Positions 25,050 through 64,000 of a stretch of 64,000 nucleotides of DNA are shown in pieces (position 1 is the first letter of the stretch; every line of letters starts with the position of its first letter). Origin of the DNA: Cyanodermella asteris (lineage: Eukaryota > Ascomycota > Lecanoromycetes > Ostropales > Stictidaceae); NCBI GenBank assembly GCA_900618795.1, contig UYJD01000018.1, forward strand, positions 295,537 to 359,536, given 5' to 3'. The translations under genes were made by a program, and so were the position numbers. The notes under the pieces are model-generated. The model saw only the letters and a program-made list of their open reading frames with translations, ran no database searches and was not told where the DNA came from.

Positions 25050-28000
25050 TGTCTGTGTTGGGATCCCGCTTGTGTTCAAATAGGGAAGAGATGCAACGGC
25101 CTGTTTTTTTAATACTGGTGCAATTCCTTGTTCAAGGAAACTGTCTGACGATGACTTTCTCTTGAGGCTACACGCATGATGGTCAGTCGTGATCAAATGC
25201 GCAAACAGAACAATAAAAATGGGAGATAAAAATCAACTGTCAAAAATGTTAGCTCATTGTCCTGGCGCAATCGATCATTGTAGCGGCTTACCAAGTGCAG
25301 AGGCAAGATGGGTTATCCGAATGGAGGATCCAGGAGAGCCAGCGGTGACCTGGAAGCCGGCCAGTTGGAAGCGGAAGGCGGTTGGCCACGCCTCGCGGGA
25401 AGGTGCGGGGTCGCAGACACGGAATCGCAATTGGAGCACAGCGGGGAACCAGTCGAAAGCCATTCAGGTGGACCAAGGCGAGAAGCCACAGCTGGTGCCG
25501 AACAAGGTCCAGATGTAACCGAAACCATGGTCTGTCGAGAACAAGCCGATGAGGAGACGCCATGTAGCTACGGTGTGGTTTGACAAGCAGCGCAAACGAG
25601 GCTCCAGAGAAAATTCCTGCAAGCAAACTGATCCTGGGAAAACGCAAAAGATCATAGGGCCCAGTGGGAGGGCCTGGAATACCGGAAACAGCATCAGAGC
25701 CAAATGAGAGTAGCTGTGGGAGGAGTCCAGGTGAACGAAGCAGGGGATCCCTGGGCAACACTGGGAGCGAGGAACAGACAAGCCGGAAACGCGGTATTTA
25801 TCCAGCACGGTATGTACGAAACGACCACATCATCATGTCGAAGACCACTATTACTGTCTTGACTGATGCGACGTCAAGAGTACGGGGGACCGGGTTCCCC
25901 CCCCCCCAAACAGCGCGGCAAGGTGTCAAGGGTCCAGTGGTGAGACAGCAAGGGCCAAGTTAGGAAATCCCCTCGAAGCCGAGCCATGGTAGAAGAAAAC
26001 GCAGTCCAGGAGCGCAGCGCGCATGCGATCAGGGTTTACCTTGAGCCTCGGACAGGGTAGGATCATACATGATGCGAGCAAAATACATGACTTTGATTGC
26101 CAACGGTGGCAGGAAGAACAGTGTCAAAGTAGTAGCAAACGGAAGGTTAATACCTCATATTCTCCTCGAAGGGTTCTTCCAAGTAACGGTAGAGCGGATG
26201 CTGGAGTGCGCGTCAATCAGGTCCAGACCAACGGTGTGGTCAACAGCAGCAAGAAGATCAAGGTCAAGGTCAAGGCCAGTGGAATCTCCTTTGGAAAGTC
26301 AAGTCCTAGCACTGTGGTCCTGATGGATTTGGGTACAGTTCAGTGGATTCAATCCTTGGCAGTGTCCTTTGTCCTGGGAAAAACTGGAAGCGTGGTCCTT
26401 TGGGCAAAAGCAAGAAAATCCAAGCGCGGGCGCGCGATAATATGTTTGATATGATAAGTGTGATAGTATGTGTATGTAGATGTCCTTGGACGTGGTCAGT
26501 CCTTGAGCCTGGGTAGCAAGAGAGTCGAGAGTAGGGGTGTGCGAGGGAGAAGAGGAAACTCGACCAAAACGGGGGAGACGAGGGCCGCAATTAAAGTACC
26601 GGCGCGACAGCAACCCCTCTCCACTCTCCCTCACAAGCAAGCGCTGACTACTCTATCGTCGGCGCCAGCAAAGCAATGGCCGGCCAAAGCTGCAGGGATG
26701 GCTCGGCGAATAGAGAGGCGGGGCGCTCTCGAGGCTGGAACTGCCAGCGTGTCGCACGGAAGCGAAGGGTGGTGGTGAAGCCGGCGGCCGCGCATTGGCT
26801 GCTTCCTCGGCGTCGACCCACTCCACATGCGGAAAAGATCGCTGAGTTGTCACTTCACGGCTTTCCTGCTTGTGTCGGCCGTTTCTGGCTGGGAAGCAAC
26901 CACTGGGATGGCGGCCATTGGTCCAGAGCCGTTCACCGTGGTAGCTCTAATGCAAGCTATGCACACCCACGCTTGCGCTTGATCACACGATTCGTAGCAC
27001 GTTCGAGTCGGCCCTTGGCGGATGGTGAACAATAGGCCTGTTTGCCATGCTGAGCAGCGAGTCGCTGCGCTCCAATATGGTGGGGACCGTGAGTCGGCGC
27101 TTGCATATGACAGCTTCCATGCCAGCGAAGCCATCACAAGATGTGCTATTGTTCTCGATCCGATCCAGTCAGAGGGTTGGATTTTCGTCGAGGCTGAATG
27201 GGCCCGCTTGAGCAATCGCGAGTTCGCGCAAGCTGTCAATGAGCTTCGCACTGACTCATCTACGGTAGGCGCGCCAGGTCTGGGTTGACTAGCAGAGGCC
27301 GGAGCCGGCTGCGAAGCTCGGCTGAGCCAGCAAGGCTGAGCAGAATTCAGAGCGGCCAGATTGAAATTATTGCCAAGCGCCATGCTCAATTCGTATCGAT
27401 AGCAGACAATCTTTGCGCCTGAATCCCAGCCAGCCGAAGCAGATCGATGGTCTGGAGCGCATATGATTGACCACGAAATTAGCGGAACGACATTCGAACT
27501 TTTTTCTCGGGCAATGAGTTTGACAGCCAGGCCAAAGAGAAGCATTCGATTGACGGGATGGTAGGGGATGCTGTGCATTGACGGGACAATGAAATGATAA
27601 CAGAGTGTCGTCATGTCAGTGAATCGCTTCACGTCCGAGGCTCGTTGGCCGCTCGGATGATAATTTATGGATACGAATCACACAGCCAAAAGCAAGGCCG
27701 TGTCATGTCAAAACTCGCTTGCAATCAGGCCGAGATCTGAAGATCTTGTGGGATCTGATCAGTCATCAAACAGGCTCAGCCTTCATCTGGATCGACAGCA
27801 ATAGATCATCTTGAGATCTTGGGCCTGCATCCAAAACGGACCAAGATCATAGCACGCCAATGAAGGTCAGTCACTACCTGTGAAGCGTTCAGGGGTCGAT
27901 GTGTGTGTACGGCTAGTCTGTCTTGCCCCAACATCAAGGGTCCAACAGAAGCTGAAACCTGCAAATTTGTGTCAGCTCAAGGTCTTCCAAGCGATCGTGA

Positions 28001-39185: not shown

Positions 39186-40011
39186 ATGTCTTCCAACATC
39201 AAGCCCCTACAGTTCATCGGCGCCAAAGGTCCGGCTCCCAACCCATGGAAAGTCGCCATGGTCCTCGAGCAGCTCGGTCTGGCCTGGGAATTCGTCAACG
39301 TCGGTGACGAATTCTTCAAAGCCGTCAAAGCCACTCCCTACACCAAGCTGAACCCCAACGGCCGCATCCCGGCTTTGGTGGACCCCAACGAGAACCACCT
39401 CGTCATCTGGGAGAGCGGTGTAAGTCCAAACAAAGCTCCACCGGCCCCTTTCCTTCCTTCTCAGACTCATTTGACTAACAACACCTTCTTCTCAGGCCAT
39501 CATCGAATACCTCGTCGAGCACTACGACCCCCAAAACAAACTCTCCGCCCCGTCGTCCGACCTCCGCCGTAAATGGCAAGAACGCGCTCTCCTGCACTTC
39601 CAAATGTCCGGACAGGGCCCCTACTTCGGCCAAGCCATCTGGTTCCACAAGTACCACCCGGAAAGACACCCCGACGCCGTGGACCGGTACATCAACGAGG
39701 CCGAGCGCGTGACCGGCGTGCTCGACACCATTCTCAAGGAATCAAAGGGACCTTGGTTGACGGGCGAGAAGCTTAGCTACGCGGACGTGGCGTTTGCGCC
39801 GTGGTTCTTGGTGCTTGAGAGCACGTATGAGGACGCGAGGCCGGGGTTTGTGAAGGGGGTTCATGACAAGTATGCGGCTTGGGCGACGTGGTGGGCGAGG
39901 GTTAGGGAGTTGGAGGGAGTGGGTAAGGTGCTGAAGATGTACAAGGAGGAGAATTGGACGGCGTTTGGGGATAAGCCGATTGAGGAGTTGGCGAAGGAGA
40001 TGGGTATTTAA
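39186..40011 (+). CDS. Glutathione S-transferase, Ure2p-like
   Basis: This conjugates glutathione to electrophiles. Exons 39186-39419 and 39496-40011 join as WESG/AIIEYLVEHYDP through GTAAGT..TCTCAG, giving 249 residues. The thioredoxin-like N-terminal domain has NPWKVAMVLEQLGLAWE, the cis-Pro region LNPNGRIPALVDP and the gamma-Glu site ESGAIIEYL. The helical C-terminal domain has LHFQMSGQGPYFGQA and the N-capping box LSYADVAFAPWF. This pattern is that of fungal Ure2p-like GSTs without the prion extension. It converges on the first gene of the tandem family with about 250 bases between stops. A detoxification or redox role is likely but the substrate is unknown. Confidence 0.9.
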
Positions 40012-40259: not shown

Positions 40260-41180
40260 TCACGCAAAAGGATACGCCTCCCCAGCAATCGCCAACCAAG
40301 GCGTGCTAGCGCCCGCGACTCTGAAAGCCGCATAAATCTTCATCCCTTGCCCCTGCGGCACGAACCGGACCTCCACCGTCCCCGGCTTCGCCAGGTCCTT
40401 GGCCGCATAATACTCAAACGTCACCATCACAGGCTCGTGACTCGCCATAAAGCCGGATCTCAACAGACCCGCTGGCCACGGCGCTATGATTTCCCCTGAC
40501 GAGTCCAAGGTGCCCCCTGTAGAGGTACTCCTGGAGTCGGCGCGGAGGTAGAGTTTGACCGGCTCTGAGGCGTTGAAGAGGCTGCAGATGAAATGGCCCG
40601 GTTTGATCGGTGTCTGCGCCGGGCGAGTGAGCTGCGCGAGCTGATACGAGGTCCCGACCACGGGGGCCGAGATCTCAGAGATTTCGAGATCGGGGTTGAA
40701 CTGAACGCGGAACTGAAGGAGGTTCGGCACCTTATCGTTCAAGTACGGCCGCTTCAACATGCTCAGCTGGACGATTTCCACTGAATACGTCCGGACGATA
40801 CTCAGGGCCGGGGCCGTCTCCACGCCGAGTCTGGGATACATGCTCGTTCGCTCGCGATGCGCCTGCAGGTCGTGGACGGATACGTGAACGACTTCTCTCC
40901 GCAGGGATTCCTGGTCTATTGCGTGGTATATCGTGGGATCTCCGGATTGTTTGCCTCGAGGCGGGACGTTCAGTGGGAAGTCGTGTTCGGGCACGTAGAT
41001 GCCGGCGTGGAAGAGGAAGATGCCGCTGTTTATGAAGTTGGGCCCCCGTCGAACGGACTGGCTGCACTGGTCGGAGAGGTTGCGGGCGAGAATTAGGATG
41101 GGAACGGGGCCGGCTGGGTGGCGGGTCGATGCCATGGTCTCCAGGTCCCCAGGCGAGTTTGCGTTTTGCTTTGGTGGCAT
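40260..41180 (-). CDS. Tandem family member 1, shared C-terminal beta domain
   Basis: Unrecognised intronless gene of 306 residues, the member nearest the GST gene. The N-terminal part (residues about 1-125) is mixed and shows no low complexity. The shared domain starts at about 128 (RTYSVEIVQLS), continues through LLQFRVQFN and reaches the family signature near 228-306: PWPAGLLRSGF, MVTFEYY, VEVRFVPQGQGMKIYAAF, PWLAIAG. It differs from its neighbours by having IYAAF where the others have C.A. There is no signal peptide, transmembrane segment or catalytic motif. The MPPKQN start is the first ATG of the frame. The four relatives follow upstream on the same strand. Confidence 0.6.
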   Translation of the reverse strand: MPPKQNANSPGDLETMASTRHPAGPVPILILARNLSDQCSQSVRRGPNFINSGIFLFHAGIYVPEHDFPLNVPPRGKQSGDPTIYHAIDQESLRREVVHVSVHDLQAHRERTSMYPRLGVETAPALSIVRTYSVEIVQLSMLKRPYLNDKVPNLLQFRVQFNPDLEISEISAPVVGTSYQLAQLTRPAQTPIKPGHFICSLFNASEPVKLYLRADSRSTSTGGTLDSSGEIIAPWPAGLLRSGFMASHEPVMVTFEYYAAKDLAKPGTVEVRFVPQGQGMKIYAAFRVAGASTPWLAIAGEAYPFA

Positions 41181-41827
41181 GGCGAGAGGTGATCGCGATC
41201 AGGGGTTGAGGAGTCTTTTGGAGAAGATCTCGAAGACATGATGGATAGGGGCAGATATGTCAAAATTTGGCAAGTAATGATGCGTGGTGACGGATAGGGA
41301 TGAAGGGGACGGTCGATGAAAGCATTTGTGTCGGAGTAACGCATGCATAGTGAATTCGTTTTCTCATCACTGTCATTGTGGCCCGTTGTCATTCCTGACG
41401 TGGGGGCACTTCTTCAAGTTCAGATTGTACAATGAACACTCATGTGAACAATAAGCGGATAGGCACAGAAGGTCTGCCGGGCAAGCACCTCTGCGCTCAA
41501 ACTGCAGATTGAACACGGCAGCTTTGATGTTCGCATGAAGGATGTACAGTGTCATCGGTAGCAGACAGTAATGAGAGGCAAGTATTGATTGAAGCAAGAT
41601 GCACCTCGTAAGATTGCGGCAAACATTGAGATCGTGAACTAACCTCTGTACAGTTCTGTGTGTCTGATCACCGGACCGACCATCACAGTCGTGGCTTCGA
41701 TGTGCTGGCTGAGCTCCGGCCACAAGAAGAGTGCGCCACAAATCAGCTGCTTGCCTTCGGACAGGCAACGGATCGGGATCGCAGTCTGCAGTGAATGCCA
41801 AGCTCGTTCTGTCGGATGCTCGAAGTC
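41181..41827. other. Spacer between tandem family members 1 and 2
   Basis: This holds the promoter of member 1 and the 3' region of member 2. The open frames here resemble neither the family domain nor any known protein. Confidence 0.35.
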
Positions 41828-42973
41828 TCAGGTCGCGCTTGTCGAGAGCACCAGCCAAGCCGGTGTTATACCTTCTGGCGTTGGGCGGAGCATGTCTTCT
41901 GCACAAGCAGCAAAGCAGGTGACGTTCCCGTCGTCATATGGCGTGAAGCGAACCGCCAAGACTCCCCGTGCGTCTGAATTTGATATATTTGAAGCAGGGT
42001 GGCGGTATAGGAACTCTAGAACTACACTTTGTGAATCAGTGATAAAGCCGGAAGGTCTGAGGTTGGACGGCCACGGTAGACTTTCGCGTATAATCGAGCT
42101 GCCTTTTAGCAGCAGGCCACCGTTGAAGAGTTCGAAATTGATCATGTGATCAGTACCGGCTTGAGGGGAATCGCCGAGTTGGACCGAAGGCGTTATTGAG
42201 CGATTCAAGCTAACAACAAGCTGGAGCTCCTTGAGATGGACGCCATCGAACAGGTGTCTGCCTCTGGGGTTGATGAATTTCCCATCATAGTGCCGCACGA
42301 GGACCGGGTAGGTTCCCAGTATACTCCGTGGTCCGTATTGTTTTACGCTTGGGTCTGACTCGTAGCACGTAGATGGATCTCTGGAGAACGTTTTTGGAGC
42401 TAGGCGAAGATACTCTACCAAAATCGACTCTGCTGTATTCGTTGGAGGCTCTGGCAGTTTCTGCAGTATTTGCCGCGATTTCCCCATCCAGTCCAGGCAA
42501 GTATTGACGAGCACCCGGTATGCAGGGGCGCCCCATAGCTCATGTCTTGAAGCGTCGCTCGATGGCAAAGCTGTCGTGTTGATGGTTCGAGACCCGGCTG
42601 TTGCCCGCGCTGTGACAAAGGACCCCACAGCATGCTGGGGGGTTCGACGAGCATCTCTTCGAACTTCCACCTCAGCTTGAGGTACAGCTCGTTCATGCTT
42701 AGATGCTTCGCCCAGCGTATGACGAAGCATAGCCGCCGCTGAATTGTGATCTGGGATGAGGTTTGCTCTGGGTGGCTTCACGACGACCTTGTCACCAGCC
42801 CTGTCGTGGGAATTGTGGTCGTCTTCCAAAAGTGACGTTGGAGGATTTTCCGTAGAGTGCTTCTCAAGCAATTTGAGATAACGCTCAAAACAGCAGCTCT
42901 CAGGGTCAGAGCATTGATGGGACTTGCGGAACTCCCCCGCCTCGTGCAGGCTCTTCCCTTGGTGTTCAGACAT
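41828..42973 (-). CDS. Tandem family member 2, shared C-terminal beta domain
   Basis: Unrecognised intronless gene of 381 residues from the ATG at 42973 (MSEHQGKSLHEAGEF). The frame is open with another ATG at 43063, but the intervening 30 residues look like translated leader. The N-terminal half is hydrophilic with paired cysteines (CSDPESCCFERYLKLLE). The family domain begins near residue 235 (GTYPVLVRHYDG), then ELQLVVSLNR, and ends with the signature LPWPSNLRPSGFI, VVLEFLYRHP, LAVRFTPYDDGNVTCFAAC and TPAWLVLST. Compared with member 1 there is a longer loop before WLVL. No targeting signal or enzyme motif is seen. Confidence 0.6.
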   Translation of the reverse strand: MSEHQGKSLHEAGEFRKSHQCSDPESCCFERYLKLLEKHSTENPPTSLLEDDHNSHDRAGDKVVVKPPRANLIPDHNSAAAMLRHTLGEASKHERAVPQAEVEVRRDARRTPQHAVGSFVTARATAGSRTINTTALPSSDASRHELWGAPAYRVLVNTCLDWMGKSRQILQKLPEPPTNTAESILVEYLRLAPKTFSRDPSTCYESDPSVKQYGPRSILGTYPVLVRHYDGKFINPRGRHLFDGVHLKELQLVVSLNRSITPSVQLGDSPQAGTDHMINFELFNGGLLLKGSSIIRESLPWPSNLRPSGFITDSQSVVLEFLYRHPASNISNSDARGVLAVRFTPYDDGNVTCFAACAEDMLRPTPEGITPAWLVLSTSAT

Positions 42974-43554
42974 GTTGGCAAAGCGATGGAAGGAGAAGAA
43001 CGGAGTAAATTGAGATGAAGGAAAGGCCCGTAAATAAATGGCCGTCAGCTTGTTTGCGACCATAGTTGTTTTTTATACGTTGGCAGCTTGAATCTTGGCT
43101 TGTTTGGGACAAAAGGCACACTTGGTCAAGCAACAGCGGGAGGCTTGTTTGCGCATAATCGCGAAATGGAGCGTAAGCTGGTTTGAGGTAACAACCCGAC
43201 AGGGAAGCCCTTCGTCAACAGCTATGTTCACAGGAACATTGCCCTGATGCAGGTTGAGATCAATGAAAGGCTCGATGCTCAAAGACAAGATGGGCAGCTA
43301 GGCCGCTTGGCTTGAACTGCCATTGGTGTTGCTAGACAGCGAGAAAATGTGGATTACCTGGAATCTAGCACAGTCCATGTATGCTTTCCAGTGTTTTGAT
43401 TGCCGCCGCCGCAAACTGTGATGAGTCCATTGAACTTTCGTCACAGTAGCAGAGGGCCACTGTCACTCGCTTGCCTTCAGACGGAACGCTGCCAAGCAGA
43501 CTCGCAGTCTGTGGTGGCTGTCGAGCTCATCCGCTTTTTCGCATGCTCGATGTT
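42974..43554. other. Spacer between tandem family members 2 and 3
   Basis: This holds the promoter and leader of member 2 and the 3' region of member 3. No gene is seen. Confidence 0.35.
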
Positions 43555-44826
43555 TTATTCAGAGCTCGTCATCAACATCAGCCATGGTGAGTGAGGTAGT
43601 CCCTTTGGCGAGATCGTGCCCCGTCCAAACAAAGCAAAGCAGGTGATGTTGCCATCTTGATATGGAGTGAAACGCATCACCGCACTGCCTCCAGCAGCTT
43701 GGTGTGGAATCTGGCAGTCAACTTCTATCTCCGCATATAGCGGGTCAGTGAGCATGCCGGACGAGGTCAAGTTCGCTGGCCAATCGTATGCTCCGCCAAT
43801 CCTTGAACAGCCTATGAGAAGTGGTGCAGGACGGCCGGCTCTGACCAGCGTGAAGTCGAATTGATGAGGAACACGAGGCGGGTTGGGGCCGCTGACTTGA
43901 GCTGAGGAATTCAGGAAATGGTTCAGCCTGAGTCGCAACCGCAAATCGTTGTCTTGACAGGGTTGCAGCGACTGCCCATGAACCCCGATCTGCGCAGCAT
44001 TGTAATGCGTTATATGGACCTCGTATTCCCTCAATATGCTCGTTGAGCCGTGTTGAACAGCCCGTGGATCCGAATCATAAAGTATAGGTGGATATGATAG
44101 GGGTCCTCCTGGAAGTCTATGACTATTCAGTAATCTAGAATATATCGTACTCATGGTCCGCCCATGCATTACATTCGACGAAGGCTGGGTTGTATGCGGT
44201 TGCTGTTGTTGACCTGAATCTGTCGGAGTTGAGGAGCTCTGGATGATTTGCTGGCAAGCTCCACAAGTGTCGGCCAACGGCTGCTGTCTGGTGTTGAACG
44301 TCAATGGAGAGGTCGCTCTGCCAACAACACCAGGCTCATCTAATACCATCTCTGTGTCCAAACTCTCCGCTGCAGCATGGGTAAGCTGAAATTCGTTTTC
44401 GTGTGCACCAATTACGGCGTCCACTGCAGTTTGTTCGTACTCGTCTAGTTCCATCTCCGCAATCGAAGGCTCCACAGCAACATGAGCGGGCCGAAGGCCA
44501 ACTTCACGTGCGGAAGTGTCGGTTTCCATTTCAATTTGTTCGTGCTCTGGTATTTCTTCCGTGGCGACGGCAGTTGCAGTGACCGCCTGACCGTGATTTG
44601 AGTCAAGGCTGGCTGTGCTGGTCTGGGCGACAGTGACCGTGCTGCCATTCTGCAAGTTTGACTCGCGGCTATTATCGGGAGGAGCCATGGTGGAGTTGTC
44701 GGATGACTGGTTTTCAAGATTTGCGAGGTCATGAGAAGAAGTCCCGTTATCAGGATGAGACATCCGATGTGCCCTGCGATAGCCCGGCTCACATTGGGAC
44801 CTGCTACCTCGTCGAAAATTGGACAT
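43555..44826 (-). CDS. Tandem family member 3, shared C-terminal beta domain
   Basis: Unrecognised intronless gene of 423 residues from the ATG at 44826 (MSNFRRGSRSQCEPG). An in-frame ATG at 44877 is the alternative. The N-terminal 190 residues are disordered, acidic and Ser/Thr-rich, with two similar segments that look like an internal duplication (EMELDEYEQTAVDAVIGAHE and EMVLDEPG, each preceded by a VAVEPSI or AAESLDT run). A QQQQPH stretch follows. The family domain starts near 275 (REYEVHITHYNA), then LRLRLRLNHF, and ends with YDWPANLTSSGML, AEIEVDCQIP, AVMRFTPYQDGNITCFALF and SPWLMLMT. It is closest to member 2 in the RFTPY..GN.TCFA block. Confidence 0.6.
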   Translation of the reverse strand: MSNFRRGSRSQCEPGYRRAHRMSHPDNGTSSHDLANLENQSSDNSTMAPPDNSRESNLQNGSTVTVAQTSTASLDSNHGQAVTATAVATEEIPEHEQIEMETDTSAREVGLRPAHVAVEPSIAEMELDEYEQTAVDAVIGAHENEFQLTHAAAESLDTEMVLDEPGVVGRATSPLTFNTRQQPLADTCGACQQIIQSSSTPTDSGQQQQPHTTQPSSNVMHGRTMSTIYSRLLNSHRLPGGPLSYPPILYDSDPRAVQHGSTSILREYEVHITHYNAAQIGVHGQSLQPCQDNDLRLRLRLNHFLNSSAQVSGPNPPRVPHQFDFTLVRAGRPAPLLIGCSRIGGAYDWPANLTSSGMLTDPLYAEIEVDCQIPHQAAGGSAVMRFTPYQDGNITCFALFGRGTISPKGLPHSPWLMLMTSSE

Positions 44827-45220
44827 CTTGGCAATAGTGCTGACAGAAGACGAGGGGATGCAGAGGGAAAATGGCAATCTTTAAGTAACAGCCATAGACA
44901 CCCTGGCCATTGTGGTAGCCAGCACAACAACGTGAACAACCCATTTCGCCCACGCTAACTGTTTTGTGAGAAAACGCTGGATAGAATACAAACTCATTCA
45001 AGGTGACAAACTGATACCCATCTGTAGACAGCCAGTTGAGTAGCAAGATCGGTTTGATATCGATCCGATGGAGGCATCTCTGACGTCTCCGCAGCAGATT
45101 GCCTGTAAATAAGCCTCCGCTGATCAAGGCATTCTCGAATCAATCCGCTCTTGAGAATGACTGACCAATTCTCCCCTCCGATGCATGACACGTAGATAAT
45201 CCTGCGCGACACCCGCGATA
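44827..45220. promoter_or_regulatory. Promoter of tandem family member 3
   Basis: The upstream side carries AGCCAGCACAACAACGTGAAC at 44917-44937. A closely similar pair of blocks (AGCCAGCACA and AATGTGAAC) occurs upstream of member 4. This suggests that the promoters were duplicated with the genes, or that the blocks bind a shared regulator. Both ideas are inference. Confidence 0.4.
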
Positions 45221-45712
45221 TCACTTTGTGATTGGTCCCAGCACCAGCCACTCTCTCTGTGCCATCTTGTAAGCGTCCTGGTTGAATATTGCACGGCAGG
45301 TGACTTCTCCATATTCATTCTCATCCAGTCGGATATCAGCCACACCGGCCAGGCTCGAACCCTCAAACTCCCACTTGAATTCACGCATCGCCAACACTAG
45401 CCCAGTTGGCAGATGCGGCACGGCTTTCGCGGGATAGGTTAGCGTTACACCCTGAATCAATCCCTCCTTCCTAGTTTCGGAATATACCTTGAACTGAAAC
45501 CGGTTTCGCCGTCCGGGCACGCTAGGATTATTAACGCTCACCTCTTCGATCCGCAGGTGTAGCGTCTTGTTGCCATAATTCTGCCAGAGTAATTGTGAAT
45601 CAAGTGACGTGTTCGTATTTAGCTTTTCTATTCTGACACGGAAAGTTTGGGTTGGACGAATCGTCCGCTGGGTGCTAGCCCCAACTCCAATTCCAGTTAC
45701 GTCCTCGCTCAT
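45221..45712 (-). CDS. Tandem family member 4, minimal form of the shared domain
   Basis: Unrecognised intronless gene of 163 residues from the ATG at 45712 (MSEDVTGIGVGAST). The frame continues to an ATG at 45778, but the extra 22 residues look like translated leader. This member consists of almost nothing but the family domain: QTFRVRIEKLN, LHLRIEEVSVNNP, RFQFKVYSE, then HLPTGLVLAMREFKWEF, VADIRLDENEYGEVTCRAIF and REWLVLG. It lacks the WP dipeptide and the F.P element, so it is the most diverged copy. It marks the domain at about 130 residues and gives the clearest boundary. Confidence 0.6.
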   Translation of the reverse strand: MSEDVTGIGVGASTQRTIRPTQTFRVRIEKLNTNTSLDSQLLWQNYGNKTLHLRIEEVSVNNPSVPGRRNRFQFKVYSETRKEGLIQGVTLTYPAKAVPHLPTGLVLAMREFKWEFEGSSLAGVADIRLDENEYGEVTCRAIFNQDAYKMAQREWLVLGPITK

Positions 45713-45780
45713 CGTTGTGACCGGGATGATTTTTTTCCTGAAGGTCGATTGTCTGCTCAGACGAGACGGGTGAAACAAGA

Positions 45781-45837
45781 ACTCTATATAGAGTTTCCAT
45801 AGTGGGCAGCCAGCACAGGCTTCTGGACAATGTGAAC
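45781..45837 (-). promoter_or_regulatory. Palindromic TATA element and shared block upstream of member 4
   Basis: ACTCTATATAGAGT at 45781-45794 is a perfect 14-base palindrome containing TATATA, about 70 bases upstream of the member 4 start, which fits a TATA box. Just beyond it lie AGCCAGCACA (45808-45817) and AATGTGAAC (45829-45837), matching the element upstream of member 3. Confidence 0.45.
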
Positions 45838-46134
45838 ATGTCAGCAGCCGGGCTGATGATGACTGCAGTATGGTCAGAGTTTGCTGTCAGTGAGTGTTGA
45901 ACATGGGCAGCGAACAATGGCGCAGATAGATCCGTGGCCTGTGAGGTATAGGCCAGTGTGCATTCATACGAACGCTTGTCAAGAGTGCCACACTAGCAAG
46001 CGACACCTTGCGTGAACTCCCCGTCTCCGACCGTGTTTCGACCTTCAGGACAGCACTGAGACGTTGTCAAGATCACGATGGTTCCGTTCCGCGGCTCTCC
46101 ATATTGAAGGCGCCCTACTTTTGAGCTGGTTGTG

Positions 46135-47901
46135 TCATGCTGCGCTTCCCTCAAGAGTAAGCCAGGGCTGATTAGGATTTCGAGAATGGAACAGATCTGC
46201 ATAGCAAGTGACTTGCCCATTTCCGTGTGGCACGAAGCTGACGGTAATCGACCCGCTGTGATATCCGCGCGGTGCAATTTCATAGACAAACTCCATGTGG
46301 ACGGTCCGCAGCTCCGTAATCAGTCCATCATGGGTCAGGTGGCTCGGCTCAGGCCACCGACGACCAATTCTGGAATCGCCTCTCAAGTAATGGTTGTCCC
46401 CATTTGGAGCAGTGAGAATCTTGCAACTGAACTTGTTTGGCAAACCGGTACCGCAGGGCGAGGGTTCGAGCTTTATGCAGAAGGGGAAGATGTTGTTGGC
46501 AGCAGCGTCGTAGAATATGCGGGTTTCGTCCATGTAACGGCTGAAAAATGTCTTCATCTGATTGTCGATGGTCTTTATTGCCAAATTGTAGGTCTGCAAT
46601 ATGTTTGGGGGGACACTTGATTGGATGCTTGCTCCTTGAAACATCTGTGAGGGCGGACTCTGGTTGATTGGAGCTTGCGGTCTTGACTGTGAGGTCTGTG
46701 TTGGAGGCCCGCGAACGCCTGGAGAAATCATTGAAGTCAGGCGCAGGGGCGCTGCTGGAACCCTATGTGGTTGGAGTAGTGTGGAGGGATGATCAGTGCG
46801 CTGAGAAGGTGGCTGATAAGATGGATTATACGGCATTTGAGGAATGGTTTGTGGATGGAGTTGATGAGGTCCTTGACGCTGAAATTGGAAGAATGGTTGA
46901 CAGGGCTGCTGAGAGGGGCCGTCATGAGATGGTTGAAGACGTGATTGGCAAATACCTTGAAGCTGCATTTGAGGATGTAATTGAGGAGGTCCTTGAGGAT
47001 AGAACGACTGATAAAGCTGTGTAGGAGGGTTTCCAGGAAGTGCTTGAACACGTGGCTGAGGAGGTTCTTGTGGCGGCCGGGGAGGCAGGAATTGACAAGA
47101 CTGCCGAGAAAAAGGCTCATCTTGCAATTGAGTAGATAGCTGCGGAGGGACCTGAAGTATTGGCTCCTGAGGAGCAAGATCCTGAGGAGCAGAAACCGCA
47201 AAAGGCACTTGAGGAGGTATCTGGAGAGGTGCTTGAGAAGGCGTTCGCGGGTTTACTCCTGAAGAACTGGAATATTGCGAAGGAGTCTGCGGCAAATTGA
47301 CGTGTGGAGGTCCTTGAGAGAGTGGTTCGACAGGGGGCTGACGAGGTGGAATAGGAGTCTGCTGGTGATCTTGTTGCGCTCGTGGCAATGATGCAGGTAG
47401 AGAGTGCTGGCTTTCAGGCGTGCCCTGAATAGTCGGCGATGATTGATCACTGTGAACACCAACATCATCGTCATCACAGCTTGTATTTGGACGCTCAACT
47501 GCACCTTGGTCCGAGACTGAACTCTCCCTCACTTCGGTACGTTCGTTGGCGATCGTCCTGCCACTATGAGAAGGCGAGCAGTGACGGTCGTTGGGAGTCA
47601 CTGTATTGCCTCGCTTGAGGCGACGAAGAGACTCCATGTACCGGCCCCTTTTCTCGTGCTCAAGTACCTGTTGTCCGGGATGTTCCAATTCCCATTGGGC
47701 CGCCCATTCAGTTGCTTCTTGCAAAGCCGCAGTCATTTGAGGTGTCATTTGCTTGGGCATGCTTGTGCTTGCACTTGGACGACCAGGGCTTTGCACTCCC
47801 CGCTGAGTCGCCCTTGGTGTTCCTTTCTGGAAGGCCACAGTCTTCCGAGGCGTTGTCCGCTTAGACACGCCTGCGCTTGCCCTGCCACTTATGCCAGCCA
47901 T
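46135..47901 (-). CDS. Tandem family member 5, Pro/Gln-rich with shared C-terminal beta domain
   Basis: Unrecognised intronless gene of 588 residues from the ATG at 47901 (MAGISGRASAGVSKRT). A further in-frame ATG at 47949 is less likely. The first 75 residues are basic, with a loosely repeated segment (RTTPRKTVAFQKGTPRAT, then SMPKQMTPQMTAALQEAT). Residues about 180-430 are a long Pro/Gln-rich, prion-like tract built of imperfect PPQ.P / Q.PPQ units. The family domain follows: QTYNLAIKTIDNQ near 450, FPFCIKLEP, then WPEPSHLTHDGLIT, VHMEFVYEIAP, ITVSFVPHGNGQVTCYADLF and QPWLTLEG. The same C-terminus on such different N-termini argues that this domain is the working core. Cellular role unknown. 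Confidence 0.62.
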   Translation of the reverse strand: MAGISGRASAGVSKRTTPRKTVAFQKGTPRATQRGVQSPGRPSASTSMPKQMTPQMTAALQEATEWAAQWELEHPGQQVLEHEKRGRYMESLRRLKRGNTVTPNDRHCSPSHSGRTIANERTEVRESSVSDQGAVERPNTSCDDDDVGVHSDQSSPTIQGTPESQHSLPASLPRAQQDHQQTPIPPRQPPVEPLSQGPPHVNLPQTPSQYSSSSGVNPRTPSQAPLQIPPQVPFAVSAPQDLAPQEPILQVPPQLSTQLQDEPFSRQSCQFLPPRPPQEPPQPRVQALPGNPPTQLYQSFYPQGPPQLHPQMQLQGICQSRLQPSHDGPSQQPCQPFFQFQRQGPHQLHPQTIPQMPYNPSYQPPSQRTDHPSTLLQPHRVPAAPLRLTSMISPGVRGPPTQTSQSRPQAPINQSPPSQMFQGASIQSSVPPNILQTYNLAIKTIDNQMKTFFSRYMDETRIFYDAAANNIFPFCIKLEPSPCGTGLPNKFSCKILTAPNGDNHYLRGDSRIGRRWPEPSHLTHDGLITELRTVHMEFVYEIAPRGYHSGSITVSFVPHGNGQVTCYADLFHSRNPNQPWLTLEGSAA

Positions 47902-48500
47902 CGTGACGGTGTTGATCGATAGCAAGGTTGAAATATGGCAATAGAGCACGGAGTTGATGGACTAGATATGCGTTGTTCGCTTCATAGGCAGCAACTTGTT
48001 GTTCAGAAGTTCATACTCGTAGCCGCATGTACGGTTCCTGAAAGGTCGGTGTTGCCATGCTTCACGTACTGTGGATGAGCAAAAGCGCAGGTCCTCCCCC
48101 CTGTCAGCCAGGAAGGGCGTGCGGTTGTCTTTGAGCTGCTTCGGGCTGATGCATACAACTTGCGTCCAAGTCACGGAAACATGACTTTGGACCCGGGAAT
48201 TTGCGTTATGTCAATCATCCACGTAGCCAAGTTTCAAGCCAACCGCGGGTGTCTCGGATGGTATCCGTAGCGCGACACTTTGGCGAGACCGATGCTTCTT
48301 GACGCCTGTAAGGCCCTTCTCCAGGCCGTCATAGAATAGACTGCTTGGTTAGTGGAGTGAAAGCCCCACCGCTCTTGTCAGAAGTTCTTGCTCTCGAAGC
48401 TGACCGACAATGTTTCAGAAGATATTAGTGGAGAGACCTTCAGCGAGATAAATGGTTATGGGCATGACAAAGGCCCTCCTCCGGGTTGTCATTGGCTTTA
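47902..48500. other. Spacer between tandem family member 5 and DUF924 gene
   Basis: This holds the promoter of member 5 and the 3' region of the DUF924 gene. No gene or repeat is seen. Confidence 0.35.
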
Positions 48501-52520: not shown

Positions 52521-55085
52521 GTTGGGCAAGCTGTATGATGGAGATTGAGGTGTGTGAAGGAGCAAAACGAAGCTCTCGAAGATTTTCGCGGCCAGGAAGA
52601 AGAATTGCTCAGCGTCGTCGGCCAGCAATGACGACAGGTGGGGAGCAAAGCGCTCAGAGCCCCGCGGCCAACAATTCTCCCTCTCATGATTTGCCGCAGC
52701 TTATTCACCGTTCAGCAGCGTCGGCTAATCACCATCAGCGTCCATCTTCTCTATCCTCAATTCGCTGCTCTTGAGCGAGTCCGTCGAGGCCGCCATGCAC
52801 CTCGTCCGACATCGCCGCCCGGCAGCACCGGCCGTTTACCGCACAATCAGCACCAGCAAAGGATAAATCTGCGGCTGCAACCTGCTCCGTGACACGTTGT
52901 ACTCAGCCCGCGGAGGTGCAGAGGTACCTGGTACTTGACATGCCAGAGGCTCGTCGTGGGTGAGGCTTGTGGAGACAGGAGCAAAGATAGCAAGCTAGCT
53001 CTTCGCCGGTTTCTGGGCCGGCCGATATGTACCTCCCAAGATATGCTCGACAAGCGTTCCCAATCTCCCATTGGGACACCCACAACTTATAGCGGCTAAA
53101 TTCTGGAAGCATGTTCGCCATCTCGCCAAAGATTTTAGCCCCAGCAACGTGATTTTTGCCCAGCCGCTCCGACAGGGCTGAACCTCTTTTGCCAGGTACA
53201 AGCACGCTTCCGTCTCTCAGCCACCATGGCCTTGTCAGGTCGAACGCTCCATGTCGCACTTGGACTGGAATAGACTGCGCTTCTACAGCTGCTGTCCACC
53301 GACATTTCGAGTGGGTGTGCCGCCAACCGGACACACTTTGACACGTCCGTGGAACAACCATGACACGCGCTCCCAAACGTTCTGGAGGCTGACGAGACAC
53401 GCTGATGCCACCGAGCCTGATTGAGGAGGCCGGCGTCGCGGTTGCCAGAACGCGACATGGTCATCTTGAAGATAACACTGGAAATGGAAATCCAGCACAC
53501 ACGAACCACCGAGCCTCCTGCGTCGACAAGCTCAATGTCTTCCGTGGTGTAGGTAAATTTTGACCGTGTCGGTTTCAATTCGAGCACACGTCGCATGTTT
53601 TCTACTGCATAACCTGGTTTAGCAATCATGTATTTGGCCGCGGGCGATCTATACATAACGTGCTATCAGGCCACGCGAGACGCCTCTGGCCTGACGGTCG
53701 TGGCTGAGCCAAGCTTTTCCATCGTCGCAGCACCCGCCGAAAAGTGTCTCCGAAGAGGCGAATCTCTCAGGCTCGCTTTCACCTGCCTGGCTGCATTTCC
53801 GCAGGGCTGCCGAGATGGATGGCCGACCTTAGTCATTAGCGGCTTCGAGAGCTTCTGGAATGCGTCAATGACAGGTGAGCTGGCATGCGTTTCATGCTAT
53901 GCGCTGCAACACGACCCATACCGTCCAAATGGTGTCAGGGCCGCACCGCGGCTCCAAAAGCAGGTGTCAAACAGTCAGACTGATCTCGCAAGCAGCCGAA
54001 ACATTGCATTGCGGCTCTGGAAGTGCTCCCTTCACCAGATGATAGGGGGTTACCACTTGTACGATGTGAAACTTCCATAATCGAGCTTGAAGAATTGTCA
54101 TAGGACTTGCCATGTCCAAGGTTGAGAACCGGAATCTTGCCGATCCCAGCACACCGGGTCTGTCGGTATGCTATTGTGGATCATCTACGTGCAGCGCATA
54201 CTTTGCATGCTCCGACCTAAGGCCAGTTGAACCCCGGGCATCACACCGCAGATCCCCCGGGGTGGTGGGTAACGACTTTTTTCAATTGGCCTTAACCCGA
54301 GCTTCACTTTGACCAGTTGTGGGGCTTCCGTGCATTGTCACACGGTGTGCCATTCGTTGTATGACAACAACCACCCTGGGCAAGATAGCGCTCGCCGAGA
54401 GTCGAACATCGCAAATGTTTCGACAAGGGGCTCACTCGGGAGCATGGCTGTTCGAAAGATGCCTCCTAAGCTCCTCATTATCGTGCCTGCGCCGCGCATC
54501 AGACCAAATTACTATCCACCACTGATTGTCGTGTTCGAGAGCCGCAATCAAAGTGACCGTGTGAGTGGGTGAGTGTTGGCTTGAGGTGTGGCTGCTCACT
54601 AGTACCACGCGGCCGAGTCTGACCTCACCTTCCTTCGCCTGCTCCAATGATCGAGTGGTCCGGAGTACGTCTGCTCATTGGTCTTTTTGGTTTCATCTGT
54701 CTTTGAAGCTTTTGTCTTCCTCGGCCAACGACTGGGTCAAGTCGGATCCTAGCACTTGACTTTATTGCATACGTACAGCGTCGGAGCCCAGGCTCAGCAC
54801 TAGTTTGCTTGAAACTTCTTCCGAATTCGAATGTTGGCAGCGGTCCCATCCGTGTGGCTGCAGCGGGAACCCTGAGACCTAGCCTTTTGTCTTCACGCTA
54901 TAAGCCTCAAAGGCTCATAAGGCTGCATCCATCACAACTTCCATCGGATCCACATCTCTACTGTCCAACATATCCACCCGTATATCCTGCTTGACTAAGC
55001 TTATATACATCCTATGAACACCAGTTTCCGACGGCCCGTGACGCACCAAACCCATCTCCGAATTTTATCAATCACAAAACCAACC
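52521..55085. promoter_or_regulatory. Divergent transketolase / bZIP upstream region
   Basis: About 2.6 kb separate the two starts. Overlapping open frames of 150-173 codons at 52903-53656 (minus) and 53628-54080 (plus) are unrecognised and contain no domain I can name. A TATAAG-type element lies near 54899, about 190 bases before the bZIP start. No gene is called. Confidence 0.35.
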
Positions 55086-55981
55086 ATGACTTTTCAGCCT
55101 CATACCCATCAACAACCATCGTACTATACAGCGAATGGAATGATTTACGAGGACGTGACAATGTCACCTGCTATCTCGACGCCCGGTATACGTGCACAAC
55201 ACGTCAGCCAGCGAAGCGTGAGGGTTCAGCAGGGTCAGAAATACGATTTTGTTACCTCGCAAGCTCCAATGCATCACCCAAGCGCCACTCCATATGCGGC
55301 CAGCTCCCACTACGCACCAGCTACACCAGCCAATTCTCTCGACATGAGTCCTGTCGAGCATGTACAGGTTGAATATACGGATATTTCTGCTCCATATCCC
55401 GAAGATCTCAACTACAGGCCTCGCAAACAAGATGGAAGTCGACAGCCTAGCACAAGCATGCACATGGTGAGTAGGTCCGATTTTCAACATGCCGTGTATG
55501 GCGACCCGATCAACATATCCTTCCCGATATGTGCCTTCTCGTGTTCCAGGCCACCTCAGCTTTCCGATATCTTGGCTGTACACTCGGCTGACTCCGTGCT
55601 TAGCGGCGAAGAGCACAGAACCGGGCCTCGCAACGAGCCTTCCGCGAACGGAAAGAAAAGTATACACAGGACCTCCAGCGCCGCCTCCTTGAAGTCGAGC
55701 AGCAATACGAGGAACTCAAGCAAAGCTACGACGTTGTCCACAAAGAGAAGTGCCAACTGGAAGCCGCGAGTCGTCGTTGCTCGTGCGGTGGCAGCATCGT
55801 TGCAAGTCCCGGAAGCGTGGGGGGTTTTAGCCAAGCCTCTGATTGTGGCGACTTACCAGGCGAGCGAAGCAGCGCTGGCGGCGAACATTACAGGAGAGAG
55901 GCGGTGAGCATGGACTTCGACCTAGGCGAAGATCCAGATGGAGTATACGAGGTTGTGGACTGGGGCCTGGCGGGCCAATGA
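55086..55981 (+). CDS. Yap-like bZIP transcription factor
   Basis: Two exons, 55086-55466 and 55604-55981, give 252 residues. The intron has GTGAGT, a GCTGAC branch and CTTAG. The second exon opens with the basic region RRRAQNRASQRAFRERKEKY, which is the Yap/Pap1-type DNA-contact signature (N..SQRAFR). A leucine-zipper-like heptad stretch follows (QDLQRRLLEVEQQYEELKQS..V). The N-terminal exon is disordered and rich in Tyr, Pro, Ser and His. The tail has RRCSCGG, but there are no paired Cys-rich redox domains of the AP-1 kind, so an RsmA-like small Yap factor is a better comparison. RsmA in Aspergillus acts on secondary metabolism. I infer no target here. An in-frame ATG at 55014 would add 24 residues. 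Confidence 0.8.
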
Positions 55982-58432: not shown

Positions 58433-61400
58433 GACAATGAAGCCACGTTCCCGGTCGAGACCTATCTGACAGGCGAACGCCCGGAACCAAACTTTTGCAG
58501 GATAGACCATGCGCGCGCGCCTGCTGAGCGGATGTTGCGGTTTGTTTGGCTAGATCGAGGCAATCGATGGCCTTCTGACGCCCTCCTATTTTTGCACGGT
58601 ACAGCTGAGCGTCACAGCGGCGAAGCTGGTAAGCTTGATTAATCTTCTTATTCAGTCAAAGTTTGGGGCGTTCGCCAGAGTGGAGCGCCTGTCTGATATC
58701 ACGGACTCTCAAACAAATCAATGTCATTCGATGCGTGTTGGCTGTCGTCTCGGAGCTCGGAAAGTCCAACCCTTTGAATGGGAGGAACTCAGGTGGAAGT
58801 TTCCAATCGACTCATTTTACTCCTTGCTTTGAGTGGTAACGTTCGTGTGCTCGACTTTGAAGACCCGAGCTCCTCACGTTTTCAACCGATTGGCTTATAC
58901 TGAGGACTATCAGAAGCATGCGGATGGTCTCTTTGACTCTGGGGAATCCGAGTCCTGTTCCTGGACGGAATCGCCTCCAACCAACACCGTCTACCCGTCC
59001 ACCACACGGTTCAGGACATCGGCAGTCTACAGCTTTGACAGCTGATACCAGAGTCCTTTGGAGCTTCGCTTCGTACTCTCTCTACCTCTTCGAGAACTAC
59101 CATACCGTATTGGCTATACCTGAGACGTGCCAGACACTTGGACATAGCTTCCTACTCATTTGCGCCGAGGTGCGTCGCCATCAGGATTCAACAAACCACA
59201 ACTTAATGGAACGTCAGGGCATAGTGTGCCAGTCAAATGCAAGAGCAATGATACTGTGCTCTTGTCCTCGAGCAAACCGGCATCTGCCCGGCGCCTTCGA
59301 TCATCCTCCTCCTGGGACAGAGATTCGAGATGCGCACAGTCGCCCCAACTCGTTACACGCTCCGTGTCTAACGAACTCAAACTCCTCCAAGCTTCAGCTT
59401 CGAATCCTGCCGGCAGTCGATGAGGTTCAGCTGCATACGCCCAGCTTCTGCACCTGGGACGTGCGTGCTGCAGTCAGAAAGCGTGGTTGCTGGGCCGATC
59501 GTCGCACTCAATGCGTCTTCCACATGGGCCTAACCAGTGTGCAAGATGTTGGTGCTGGATTTCATACCTCCCATTGGACAGTCTGACGCGGCAAATTGCG
59601 TGTGACAATTACGTGCCTCGCTGTTTTCGCTCCGTCCGACACAGACCTGACGACTTCAAAGACTAGGCTGATAGCCTGGGAGGGGACAATTTCCAGATAC
59701 TCTGGGTCATGTGCCACAAACATGTGAACATGGGATCTCTTGCTGCTGTCCGGATGCAGTCTTATTGGCTCATTTTGCTGCCCGATGAAGCGCGGTAAGT
59801 GATACTCGAGCAATTGAAAAGAGGCACAATCACTTGGCTTCAAGGATTGAGGCTGTGACTAAAAATTGTGTGGGAGGGTGGGGCACTTTTACCAACGAAA
59901 TGCCCCTGTAAGTGATCCAATTACGGCGGGGCAGAGTCATCGCGCAGACTCTATTCAGTCTCCTCTGGGTAGCATCTTGGTGGTAGCGTCTTCAGGCACA
60001 GATACGGACGCTGGAATCAAGGCACAGCTTGTCACGTAAGGTTTCAAGGTAGGTTTGACAGTCGACAAGACCATCATAGCCGAGGTAAGTCAGAATACCT
60101 CACTGCCACAGCTTTGTCAGCCCGCCTTGGATTTCCTCCCTCAAGCCCGACAGCAGCCTTCCTGTTGTCAAGGGTGCGGAAGAACGCCGAGGAACCGAAA
60201 ACAGCAGCCCGGTGTTGTCTTGTGTCCGCCCATCAGAATGACCATCACTGTATGTGACTCTCACTGATTGGTCCACGCTCCACAGGAAGGGTACCAGACA
60301 GACTTAAGCATCCACAGGAAAAACGATCCCGTATTCGCGGATTCGAAACGGACGAGCGGCCCGATTAGGGCCTGACAGACAGGGAAGCTCGAGTGGAAGT
60401 CGCGGTGGAGCTCTTATCATCCCTGCCACGGAATACGTGTCTATGCGCCTTTTCGGGTGTTCCGTGACAGATGTTTCAAAGGGTCCATGCTCCTGTTCTT
60501 TACACTGATGTCCTTGTAGTGACCCCCACCAATGACCAGCTGAGCCTCGAAAAGCTGATTTAGACAGCTACTTCAGTGATGAATCATCCCCTGCGCAGAT
60601 CGAATGTTTTCAATCCGAACGACATGTGGTGCTTTGCGAGCAGCATGTATTGACTGATTAGGTATTCAATCCGACGACTTTGGCTATCTCGAGTTCATGT
60701 CTTTCCATGTGCAAGAACCGAGAACCCGGAACTTTTCACGGAATTCGTGCACAAAAGGACTATGATGAGCTCGCGACAGATGCGTCATGGAGTACGTCTC
60801 GCACCTGGTTGGCGATCACCGCCGCGAAATTCGAAGATCACACCAGGGGCTCCTAGCCTTCTTCGTACGCCAGGCGAAACAAAATGAATACATGGCTTAC
60901 TTGGTAAGAGTACCCAGGCCGGCACCATTATGACCCCTTTTCAGGCACCAAGCAAGATATCTGGCGAGCTGCTGGAACAATCATGACCGCGAGTACATGT
61001 ACCATTCCTACTGCCAGTATGCACATCAGACCTCAACAACATAGCTGAGCGAATTGACGATGAAATACCTGGGCAGGGACTTGAATTCATATGAATTGCA
61101 TTCCAAGACTTCGAAACATCAAGGCGTGGAGCATCATTCCAAGCTGTTCTCACCCTCTCGAGGGACCCGGCATTTATTGAACCAAAAATGGTCTCTTTGT
61201 GCACAATATTCTGGCGTGCTCCATGCTACGACTGGCATTTTCAGACTTCGGTCTCCTGGATTACTGCTTCATGACGTTTATATGGCGATCGCGGACCTTG
61301 GAAACAAAAGTCTTGTCTCCTCCTTTCAGCTCGTCGGTTGAGAACTACCATGGTATCCTCACCTCAACCCCTCAGTTCTGTATGTTCTAGAAAATTCTGA

Positions 61401-61649
61401 TCGCATGACCACAATTCCTAATAGTTTGTCTGTCTTTCTGCCCGAAATTCGTTCTTTCTCCATTCCCACAAAGTTCTGGAGGTTTTCCTTTGTCTCCTAC
61501 TTTCTCGACTCCAACCCAACCAACACCAGAGTTTCGAGAACCAGTCCCGTCCGTGTCCCGTAACAGGACGCTCAGCATCAATCCTACTCATGATTGTGTA
61601 CACCGAGACGCCGTCCCCCGAACAAAAATTCACCACCGACCCAGTCAAG
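55982..61649. other. Gene-poor stretch of 5.7 kb
   Basis: No domain is recognisable on either strand. Frames that look partly coding are at 56683-56883 (plus; SIVEIMTGGRKSVMVDFLDE) and 59160-59423 (plus, Ser-rich), but neither can be extended by consensus introns. A TTTTC repeat lies at about 58401-58432. The last few hundred bases hold the promoter of the two-TM protein gene. I saw no terminal inverted repeats, transposase or reverse transcriptase motifs. Confidence 0.4.
58401..58432. repeat. Pyrimidine tract with TTTTC units
   Basis: A T-run followed by several TTTTC units and a further T-run, within the gene-poor stretch. No function can be assigned. Confidence 0.6.
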
Positions 61650-62651
61650 ATGGCAAATCACAAAAACATGGACAGCAACCCACGCGCTGAGGAACAAATC
61701 GAGTTCCCTGACCCCTTGCAGAATGCTGCCGGCGAGAGCATCACGTACGGTCTCCTGATGGCCAAGTGCAGCCGGGACTCGCTGAGTCTCGCGTACCATT
61801 GGTATTATGGCGATGATGGAATCCTGGCCCGTGAGCGCTGGGCTGAGATCGACAAGCGCAAAAAAGCCGCCAAAGATCGCACACGAACCGACATCAAGAC
61901 GCCATTTCCCGAAAATAGCCCGCTTCAGGAGGAGTTCGATCTCGAGAGACCTCGCCGAGTAGACACCGACGCAACTGAAGTCGGTGAAGCGGCGACCGAC
62001 ACCGACGTCCAAATCGACGGCAAGCATGACAAGGCACCACTTCTCGAGACCAACATTTCCGGGGCAGCTGCTTCGGCAGCATCTTAGGAACCGGCACAAA
62101 CACCGCCTCATAAGCCCGATCAGCCCGACTCTCCGCATCAAGACACGACTCCAGCTAAACCGCGCTCCGAATTGGGATCGCTCAGCGGGATCTTCTCCCT
62201 ATTGCAAGACGTCAGCCTCTTCGCCCTGCTCTCCCACCTCATGGGCTTGACGAACAAGATCGCCACCCTGTCCACCTCCAAACAGATCACCGCCAAACTG
62301 GGCTCCCTCGGTAACATGCTAGAGTTCCTGCGCATCGCGGCGCTAGTCTCAATGGCATTCGAACTCCTTTTCGTCTTCGTGATGAGCAATGCCCCCGACA
62401 AGGACGAGTCGTCGCAAGGCAGAGAAGAGCGTGCTGGAGCCGAGGACTCCGAGGCACTGACGCGGAGAGAAGCGGAAGCGACAAAGGCGGACCTGCCGAA
62501 CTTCATGCTGGGTTGTGGGTGCTTTCGGGCTGTGGTGATTTTGGTTTTCACTTTTGTCTTCTGGTTGGCGGGCGTGATGACTCATGACGAGAGTCGTGCG
62601 ATGGAGGAGCTGTATCGCGGAAATTCTACCGCCGCGGCGTGGAGGGGATGA
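61650..62651 (+). CDS. Two-TM membrane protein gene with an in-frame TAG in a linker
   Basis: I do not recognise the family. From the ATG at 61650 the frame reads as protein to a TAG at 62085-62087 (GITYGLLMAKCSRDSLSL-like N-terminal region, AYHWYYGDDGILARERWAEIDKRKK). It then continues in the same frame to 62651 with two hydrophobic segments (LEFLRIAALVSMAFELLFVFVM and CFRAVVILVFTFVFWLAGVM, quoted here in part) separated by a charged loop. Sequence around the TAG is a disordered Ala/Pro-rich linker. Three readings are possible. First, the TAG is intronic: its own AG could be an acceptor (CATCTTAG/GAA), and phase-0 donors exist at about 61969 and 61980, though weak. Second, it is a true stop and two short genes or a broken allele remain. 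Third, read-through occurs. An ATG at 61590 is an alternative start. Confidence 0.5.
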
Positions 62652-63321
62652 TGGAAGTCGGCGGTGTGATGGGGTAGAGGATGAGGTCGTTCGCAGGCGA
62701 TTGGGTTGCGTGGCTATCGAGTAATCATCTGGCTTGTGAGTCAAGTATTTCGTCTGGTACTCGGTCAAATATCCATTCGAGTGTTCGATCAACTGTCCAT
62801 CAAAATGTCTATTCAACTTTCCATTCGAGTCTTCATTCAAGTGACCATTCAAATGTCCAATTAACTATCTGATCGGGTATCTGGCTAATCGCCAAGTTTA
62901 AGACGAAGTCAAGCTTGATCCCTTCAACAAGAGAACCAGGGGAACGCAAGCATTGAAAACATTGTCTGATCACTTGGCACGTGCAAGTACCCTCATTGAT
63001 CCTGCATGAAGAACTATGAGCTAGCTGGATGGTCAGATACACGTTGTCACCGATGTTGTGGGAACACGTTCGTGATGTATAGTGAAGCGCCCATACATGC
63101 TGCTTGGAGCAAGCACCAGAGGGGGCATGTGTTCGAACATCTACTCGAGGCCGGTCTCACGTCAGAATGCCCATGTCGTAGTTCTCGCAGAGAGACTTCT
63201 ATTCGTAACGAAACTAAAACCTGCATTTCATGCATACTAATCATTCTATTGCTCCCAGGAACCTTGCATGCACGCACTCGAAATTCGCACCCTTGCCTGC
63301 CATTCACCACCCCTAAAACGA
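62652..63321. other. Spacer with degenerate short tandem repeat
   Basis: This is a convergent spacer between the two-TM gene and the WW-like gene. It contains the repeat annotated at about 62750-62880. Nothing else is recognised. Confidence 0.4.
62750..62880. repeat. Degenerate CATTC-containing tandem repeat
   Basis: Variants of a unit like CCATTCAAGTGT recur roughly every 12-24 bases (ATCCATTCGAGTG, GTCCATCAAAATG, TTCCATTCGAGTC, TTCATTCAAGTGA, CCATTCAAATGTCC). The copies are clearly related but eroded. There is no sign that it is coding. Confidence 0.5.
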
Positions 63322-64000
63322 TCAGCCAGCTCGGAACGGGCCGCCTGATGACCTCCCCTGTCCTCCATCATTCGGCGGGCGCTCGTATGTCACGATGCCC
63401 TTCTCACCGTTCTTGTACAGCCATGCCTTGTCTTCAGGGACCCAAACGCAAGTCCAACCTTCCGGCAAGGTCGACCTTTGTGGGATCTTGGAAAAGGCTG
63501 ATCCCTGGCCTTTTGGAGCTTTGCACTCACGCGAAGGGCGTTCCTGGCCGGCATCGACCGTTGGCTCCTCCAGTCCAGGACCATAAGAAGCTTCGTACTC
63601 GTCCCGTTCCATCGCAATCGCTCGCAGCCGGTTGAGCGAGCTTTTGTATGACATGGCCGGATGCTCGGCGTTCTGCCAACGCTCGCGAATTTCTCTGAAC
63701 GATCGCCGTCTGAGCGCTGTACGGCCTTTGATGTCGATGCCGGATTCCTGGGGCTCGGGACCCGTCGTTCTCGGAAAGCTGGAAGCCTGACGCGGGTGTT
63801 TGAGGTCCGGCAAACTCTTCGCCTCCTTGTAGGCTTGCATGAAGATTTGTACGAGAGCCCGCTCTTCGTCCCGGTCGATTTCCAGGTCGGTCTTCTGCAG
63901 TCCTGCTGAGACACACTCTTCCAGCTGCGACGGAACAATAGCCATTACCATATCCATTGACGGACCAGGCTGTGGAGCTTGAAACAGCGGAGCTCGATTT
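63322..64000 (-). CDS. WW-like domain protein, 5' part outside window
   Basis: The frame runs from the stop at 63322 to the right edge of the window without interruption, so the N-terminus is probably missing. An ATG at 63957 (MDMVMAIVPSQLEECV) is the first inside, but the residues before it (APLFQAPQPGPS) also look coding. The middle is charged and helical (RRRSFREIRERWQNAEHPAMSYKSSLNRLRAIAMERDEYEASYG). The C-terminal segment LPEGWTCVWVPEDKAWLYKN..VTYERPP has the LP.GW...........Y..N......T...P pattern of a WW domain, with the second aromatic changed. Such domains bind proline-rich peptides. No family name is offered. Confidence 0.55.
   Translation of the reverse strand, partial: NRAPLFQAPQPGPSMDMVMAIVPSQLEECVSAGLQKTDLEIDRDEERALVQIFMQAYKEAKSLPDLKHPRQASSFPRTTGPEPQESGIDIKGRTALRRRSFREIRERWQNAEHPAMSYKSSLNRLRAIAMERDEYEASYGPGLEEPTVDAGQERPSRECKAPKGQGSAFSKIPQRSTLPEGWTCVWVPEDKAWLYKNGEKGIVTYERPPNDGGQGRSSGGPFRAG

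Follow-up and report, generated by a model that had tools for sequence, protein, structure and literature searches.

Which proteins are encoded by five adjacent genes in the filamentous ascomycete Cyanodermella asteris, and what might these proteins do? The genes, g1 to g5, form an array in a stretch of 64,000 nucleotides of contig UYJD01000018.1 (positions 295,537 to 359,536; hereafter the window, whose numbering is used below), between a glutathione S-transferase (GST) gene and a DUF924 gene. The list of open reading frames (ORFs) and their translations showed five consecutive minus-strand frames of 163 to 588 amino acids with no internal stop, which confirmed the layout described in a sequence-only reading of this DNA.

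The shared C-terminal domain

Each of the five proteins ends in a domain of approximately 145 to 185 residues, which is preceded by a tail of very different length. g1 (40260..41180, 306 amino acids) combines a Pro/Ser/Arg-rich tail of about 122 residues with a domain of about 184 residues that contains insertions, and g2 (41828..42973, 381 amino acids) combines a tail of about 214 residues, partly common to g3, with a domain of about 167 residues. In g3 (43555..44826, 423 amino acids), a Ser/Thr/Ala/Glu-rich tail of about 262 residues precedes a domain of about 161 residues. g4 (45221..45712, 163 amino acids), the most divergent copy, has a tail of only about 17 residues and is nearly the domain alone. 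The longest protein, g5 (46135..47901, 588 amino acids), carries a Pro/Gln-rich tail of about 425 residues and a domain of about 163 residues.

Profiles were built from four domains at a time, each copy being omitted in turn, and were compared with the 314 window ORFs of at least 80 amino acids. The omitted copy was recovered in all five runs, with E values of 5.1e-7 (g1), 8.1e-22 (g2), 2.2e-22 (g3), 3.3e-7 (g4), and 6.1e-17 (g5), versus 0.16 as the best value that any ORF outside the array attained in these runs. After the alignment rows had been re-trimmed, the corresponding values were 1.8e-6, 9e-21, 8.7e-21, 1.3e-5, and 1.8e-15, versus 0.042 for the best ORF outside the array. These results identify the five genes as tandem paralogs with a significant common domain, as the sequence-only reading had proposed. 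Across the ten pairs, the domains shared 18.5 to 34.4% identity over alignments of 135 to 157 residues. Compared one to one, g1 and g4 were weak against several partners; their membership, particularly that of g4, is therefore founded on the profile and on genomic position. It is almost certain that the five copies descend from one ancestor and thus constitute a family.

The motif by which the domain had been recognized, WP..L..SG followed by (E/F)F.Y, V(R/S)F.P..(D/G)G.VTC.A, and PWL.L, holds as a sketch, but it is complete letter for letter in none of the five copies. It is most nearly preserved in g2, in which AWLVL replaces PWL.L. g1 has GQG-MKIYA at (D/G)G.VTC.A and also PWLAI; g3 contains the variants MRF and ITC and is without (E/F)F.Y; g4 has YPAKAVPHLPTG, lacks (E/F)F.Y, and has IRLDENEYGEVTC and EWLVL; and g5 has EPSHLTHDG at WP..L..SG.

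Divergence, tails, and gene models

The differences between the copies had been attributed to fast divergence. In the closest pair, g2 and g3, the Nei–Gojobori method (NG86) gave a nonsynonymous distance (dN) of 0.65 and a synonymous distance (dS) of 1.84; dS was 1.8 to 2.2 in four of the ten pairs and undefined in the other six. Because synonymous sites are saturated, the copies may simply be old; age accounts equally well for the distances, and a fast pace was not demonstrated. The codon comparison thus points to old paralogs. The third codon position was the most changed in all ten pairs, which suggests that constraint acts on the proteins, and the second position was less changed than the first in nine pairs, the exception being g4 and g1. 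Together with the leave-one-out profiles, the pairwise codon comparison supports tandem duplication from one ancestor. A maximum-likelihood tree grouped g1 with g5 (support of 89) and did not separate g2, g3, and g4 (43); this tree is weak because it was built from five short rows.

The tails had been described as unrelated. Among the six pairs tested, the tails of g2 and g3 aligned over approximately residues 15 to 115 of both proteins with a score of 74, which was reached by none of 500 window shuffles of g2 (maximum of 66). For the remaining five pairs, between 86 and 420 of the 500 shuffles attained the observed score. The description stands at the shuffle level for these five pairs, whereas the tails of g2 and g3 look related in this alignment; against this, their common stretch by itself gave a genome-wide E value of 5.8. 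Behind the stop codons of the same two genes, 27 nucleotides at 41779..41805 (minus strand), beginning 22 nucleotides past the g2 stop, are 78% alike to positions 43502-43528, which begin 26 nucleotides past the g3 stop. This short two-copy match is possibly a trace of the g2/g3 duplication and is perhaps due to chance. The tail of g5 contains 17% Pro and 15% Gln. The stretch encoding this tail contains degenerate repeats at 46849-47238 (eight copies of 30 nucleotides at 65% or more) and a 12-nucleotide period at 46969-47000.

The start codons of g1 to g5 were picked by eye. An additional in-frame ATG of g2 at 43063 would lengthen the protein by 30 amino acids. The start of g1 was set at the in-frame ATG at 41180. 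An ATG at approximately 41239 opens a 48-codon frame (41093-41239) that is in another frame and overlaps this start, and no plausible intron joining it to g1 was seen by eye; for these reasons, the start chosen for g1 is uncertain. Either the overlapping frame is an upstream ORF, or the start of g1 was wrongly placed, or its 5' end may have been altered. The G+C content at third codon positions is 0.75 in g1 compared with 0.46 to 0.55 in g2 to g5. With the chosen starts, of which those of g1 and g2 are uncertain and that of g2 is the shorter of two, hydropathy analysis revealed no hydrophobic N-terminus or membrane-like segment (the largest 19-residue hydropathy was 1.05). Judged by hydropathy, the apparent lack of a hydrophobic N-terminal segment would speak against a classical secreted effector.

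Relatives and genomic surroundings

The genome of the organism itself (28.5 Mb, 25 contigs) was searched with single-protein queries, one per gene or domain. No copy outside the array was found genome-wide with queries from all five genes up to an E value of 10. These searches did not recover g4 from the other copies or the other copies from g4; therefore, an equally divergent further copy could be overlooked. Within the 64-kb window, no additional copy or remnant was seen. g1 to g5 had no significant match in Pfam, where the best was Avr2 against the tail of g2 (E value of 0.037; 14.3 bits against a cut-off of 27), no match in NCBIfam, no significant match in PHROGs (a single match at 0.13), and no significant match among the sequences of solved structures in PDB. 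The array domain matched none of the families searched, and no family reached significance in any of the three family collections, in agreement with the sequence-only reading, which knew no Pfam family with this signature.

A collection of 5.8 billion proteins, in which fungi near this organism are thinly sampled, also yielded no match at E values up to 1 (720 candidates) or up to 10 (2138 candidates). In a control with the conserved DUF924 neighbor, the best match had 52% identity (an ENA record), the best named match had 42% (Xanthoria), and 4 of the 120 matches listed (173 in all) carried a fungal name. The negative result in this collection is weak because named fungal matches were so few in the control. 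Judging from this control and from the HET-domain matches described below, the fungus probably comes from a lineage of filamentous ascomycetes that has been poorly sampled. The GID4/GID10 degron receptors (Vac_ImportDeg, PF09783) were considered separately. The genome's own PF09783 matches are located on contigs C9 and C5 and not at the array. PF09783 was listed for none of the five array proteins at E values up to 10 (filters drop most matches above 0.1), and the array profile gave no match up to 10 against the frames of at least 40 amino acids of the genome's PF09783 matches. Within these limits, no sequence profile match to the GID4 family was obtained in either direction.

The array lies among housekeeping genes. 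The window encodes TRP (GATase-IGPS-PRAI), NUP188, KTI12, a Methyltransf_34 protein, a G-alpha subunit, GST, the array, DUF924, and transketolase. The flanking genes had been described as spliced. This appears to be correct for GST (39186..40011, plus strand), which is split over two frames (39186-39572, GST_N; 39604-40011, GST_C), and for transketolase, whose frame is without the first half of the N-terminal domain, but not for DUF924 (PF06041; 48501..49397, minus strand), which is a single open frame of 298 amino acids. Additional ORFs of 185 to 455 amino acids had no Pfam match at an E value of 0.001 (3372-4739, 18072-18839, 24327-25232, 52903-53460, 54999-55907, 58861-59586, 61425-62651, and 63000-63635), and some of them are perhaps exons or chance frames.

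On the contig that carries the window (C4), the array occupies C4:335796-343437, approximately 336 kb from base 1; a search of the assembly for telomere repeats gave none. Genome-wide, we counted 123 HET-domain matches by frame, so that the number of genes is smaller; several of these matches contain internal stops. The nearest one (C4:225580-226008) is approximately 110 kb off the array, which is thus not adjacent to a HET gene, and none of the nine HMG-box matches is on this contig. These results speak against a link to known recognition loci.

Proposed function and rival explanations

In the low-confidence model of g4, eight strands and one helix were predicted. The better of the structure models resembles small antiparallel β barrels, which we take only as a lead. 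The domain is probably all-β, whereas ligand binding by a barrel is doubtful. Compared with lipocalin/streptavidin-type meander β barrels, the array has no significant sequence match, low model confidence, and no identified ligand site. In the reading that we favor, the array is an old family at a single locus, whose five protein-coding genes arose by tandem duplication. Within the cell, the all-β domain, perhaps a small antiparallel β barrel, would bind a small molecule, a glycan, or a peptide as its ligand; the copies would retain a common scaffold but vary in their loops and hence in ligand, and the low-complexity tails, mostly distinct per copy, would set location or partners. We assign a probability of roughly one in three to this reading, namely, an old single-locus family of intracellular β-domain binding proteins with low-complexity tails. 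The structure models are weak, with predicted local distance difference test (pLDDT) scores of 52 and 37.

In another explanation, the frames are not genes at all but are open by chance or represent decayed copies. In keeping with this, a codon-usage score for which seven genes of the window served as the training set did not favor the true frame in g1, g3, g4, or g5; however, the measure is weak because two of the seven reference genes were also outscored by another forward frame. All five frames have stayed open over their whole length despite saturated synonymous sites, which would hardly happen by chance, and the common domain lies far above the controls; we therefore consider this explanation extremely improbable. 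The proteins could also belong to a known fungal family from which they have diverged, one too distant or too sparsely represented to be detected. The few fungal names in the DUF924 control are in line with this possibility, as is the fact that the protein search requires shared five-residue words at the low identity of the array, whereas the failure of the Pfam, NCBIfam, PHROGs, and protein collection searches argues against it. We consider this explanation less likely than not, and only slightly less probable than the reading that we favor.

The remaining alternatives concern function, and we regard each of them as improbable. Fungal cytoplasmic defence lectins are compact proteins without an apparent signal peptide. 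The array proteins, which also lack an apparent signal peptide, could be lectin-like toxins of this type, stored in the cell and directed against fungus-eating animals, with copies tuned to different glycans, but the long tails of g5 (P/Q-rich) and g3 (S/T-rich) would be unusual and galectin matches were at the noise level. Such lectins, for example the galectin CGL2 (PMC2798750), have a small all-β domain, as the array proteins probably do. Nuclear or regulatory proteins, in which the β-domain binds and the tails (P/Q-rich in g5, S/T/E-rich in g3) resemble activation regions, would agree with the tail composition, the missing hydrophobic N-terminus, and one short basic stretch in g5. By contrast, g4 is nearly tailless, no DNA-binding family appeared in the Pfam search, and three simple basic-motif patterns gave nothing in g1 to g4.

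Diversified copies might instead act in self/non-self recognition, mating, or sexual development. According to a Neurospora study (PMC10684091), clusters of lineage-specific genes, including paralogs, lie with HET genes and react when conditions change the mode of reproduction; orphan arrays in themselves are therefore of a known kind, and the present genome has HET-domain matches of its own. Like the genes in that study, the array consists of duplicated side-by-side genes with no recognized domains and no outside homolog found. Unlike them, it is distant from the nearest HET match, is surrounded by housekeeping genes, lies on a contig that gave no HMG-box match, shows saturated divergence that points to age, and is not shown to be subtelomeric. 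The analysis decides neither for nor against the roles that the sequence-only reading had named: self/non-self recognition, host interaction, and reproductive isolation.

Fungi have many genes in which no domain is recognized. The array brings together, at a single locus, five copies of an unassigned domain that are both old and intact; this suffices for building a profile, and this profile allows one to ask in sister species about the origin and the ligand of the domain. In its most specific form, our proposal is a putative new fungal domain family, an intracellular β-barrel binding module with mostly independent low-complexity tails, amplified at one locus that housekeeping genes surround, whose copies would act as receptors for different ligands or partners; this form is speculative and, on present evidence, unlikely. 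The importance of the array lies mainly in being a lead to a new domain family.
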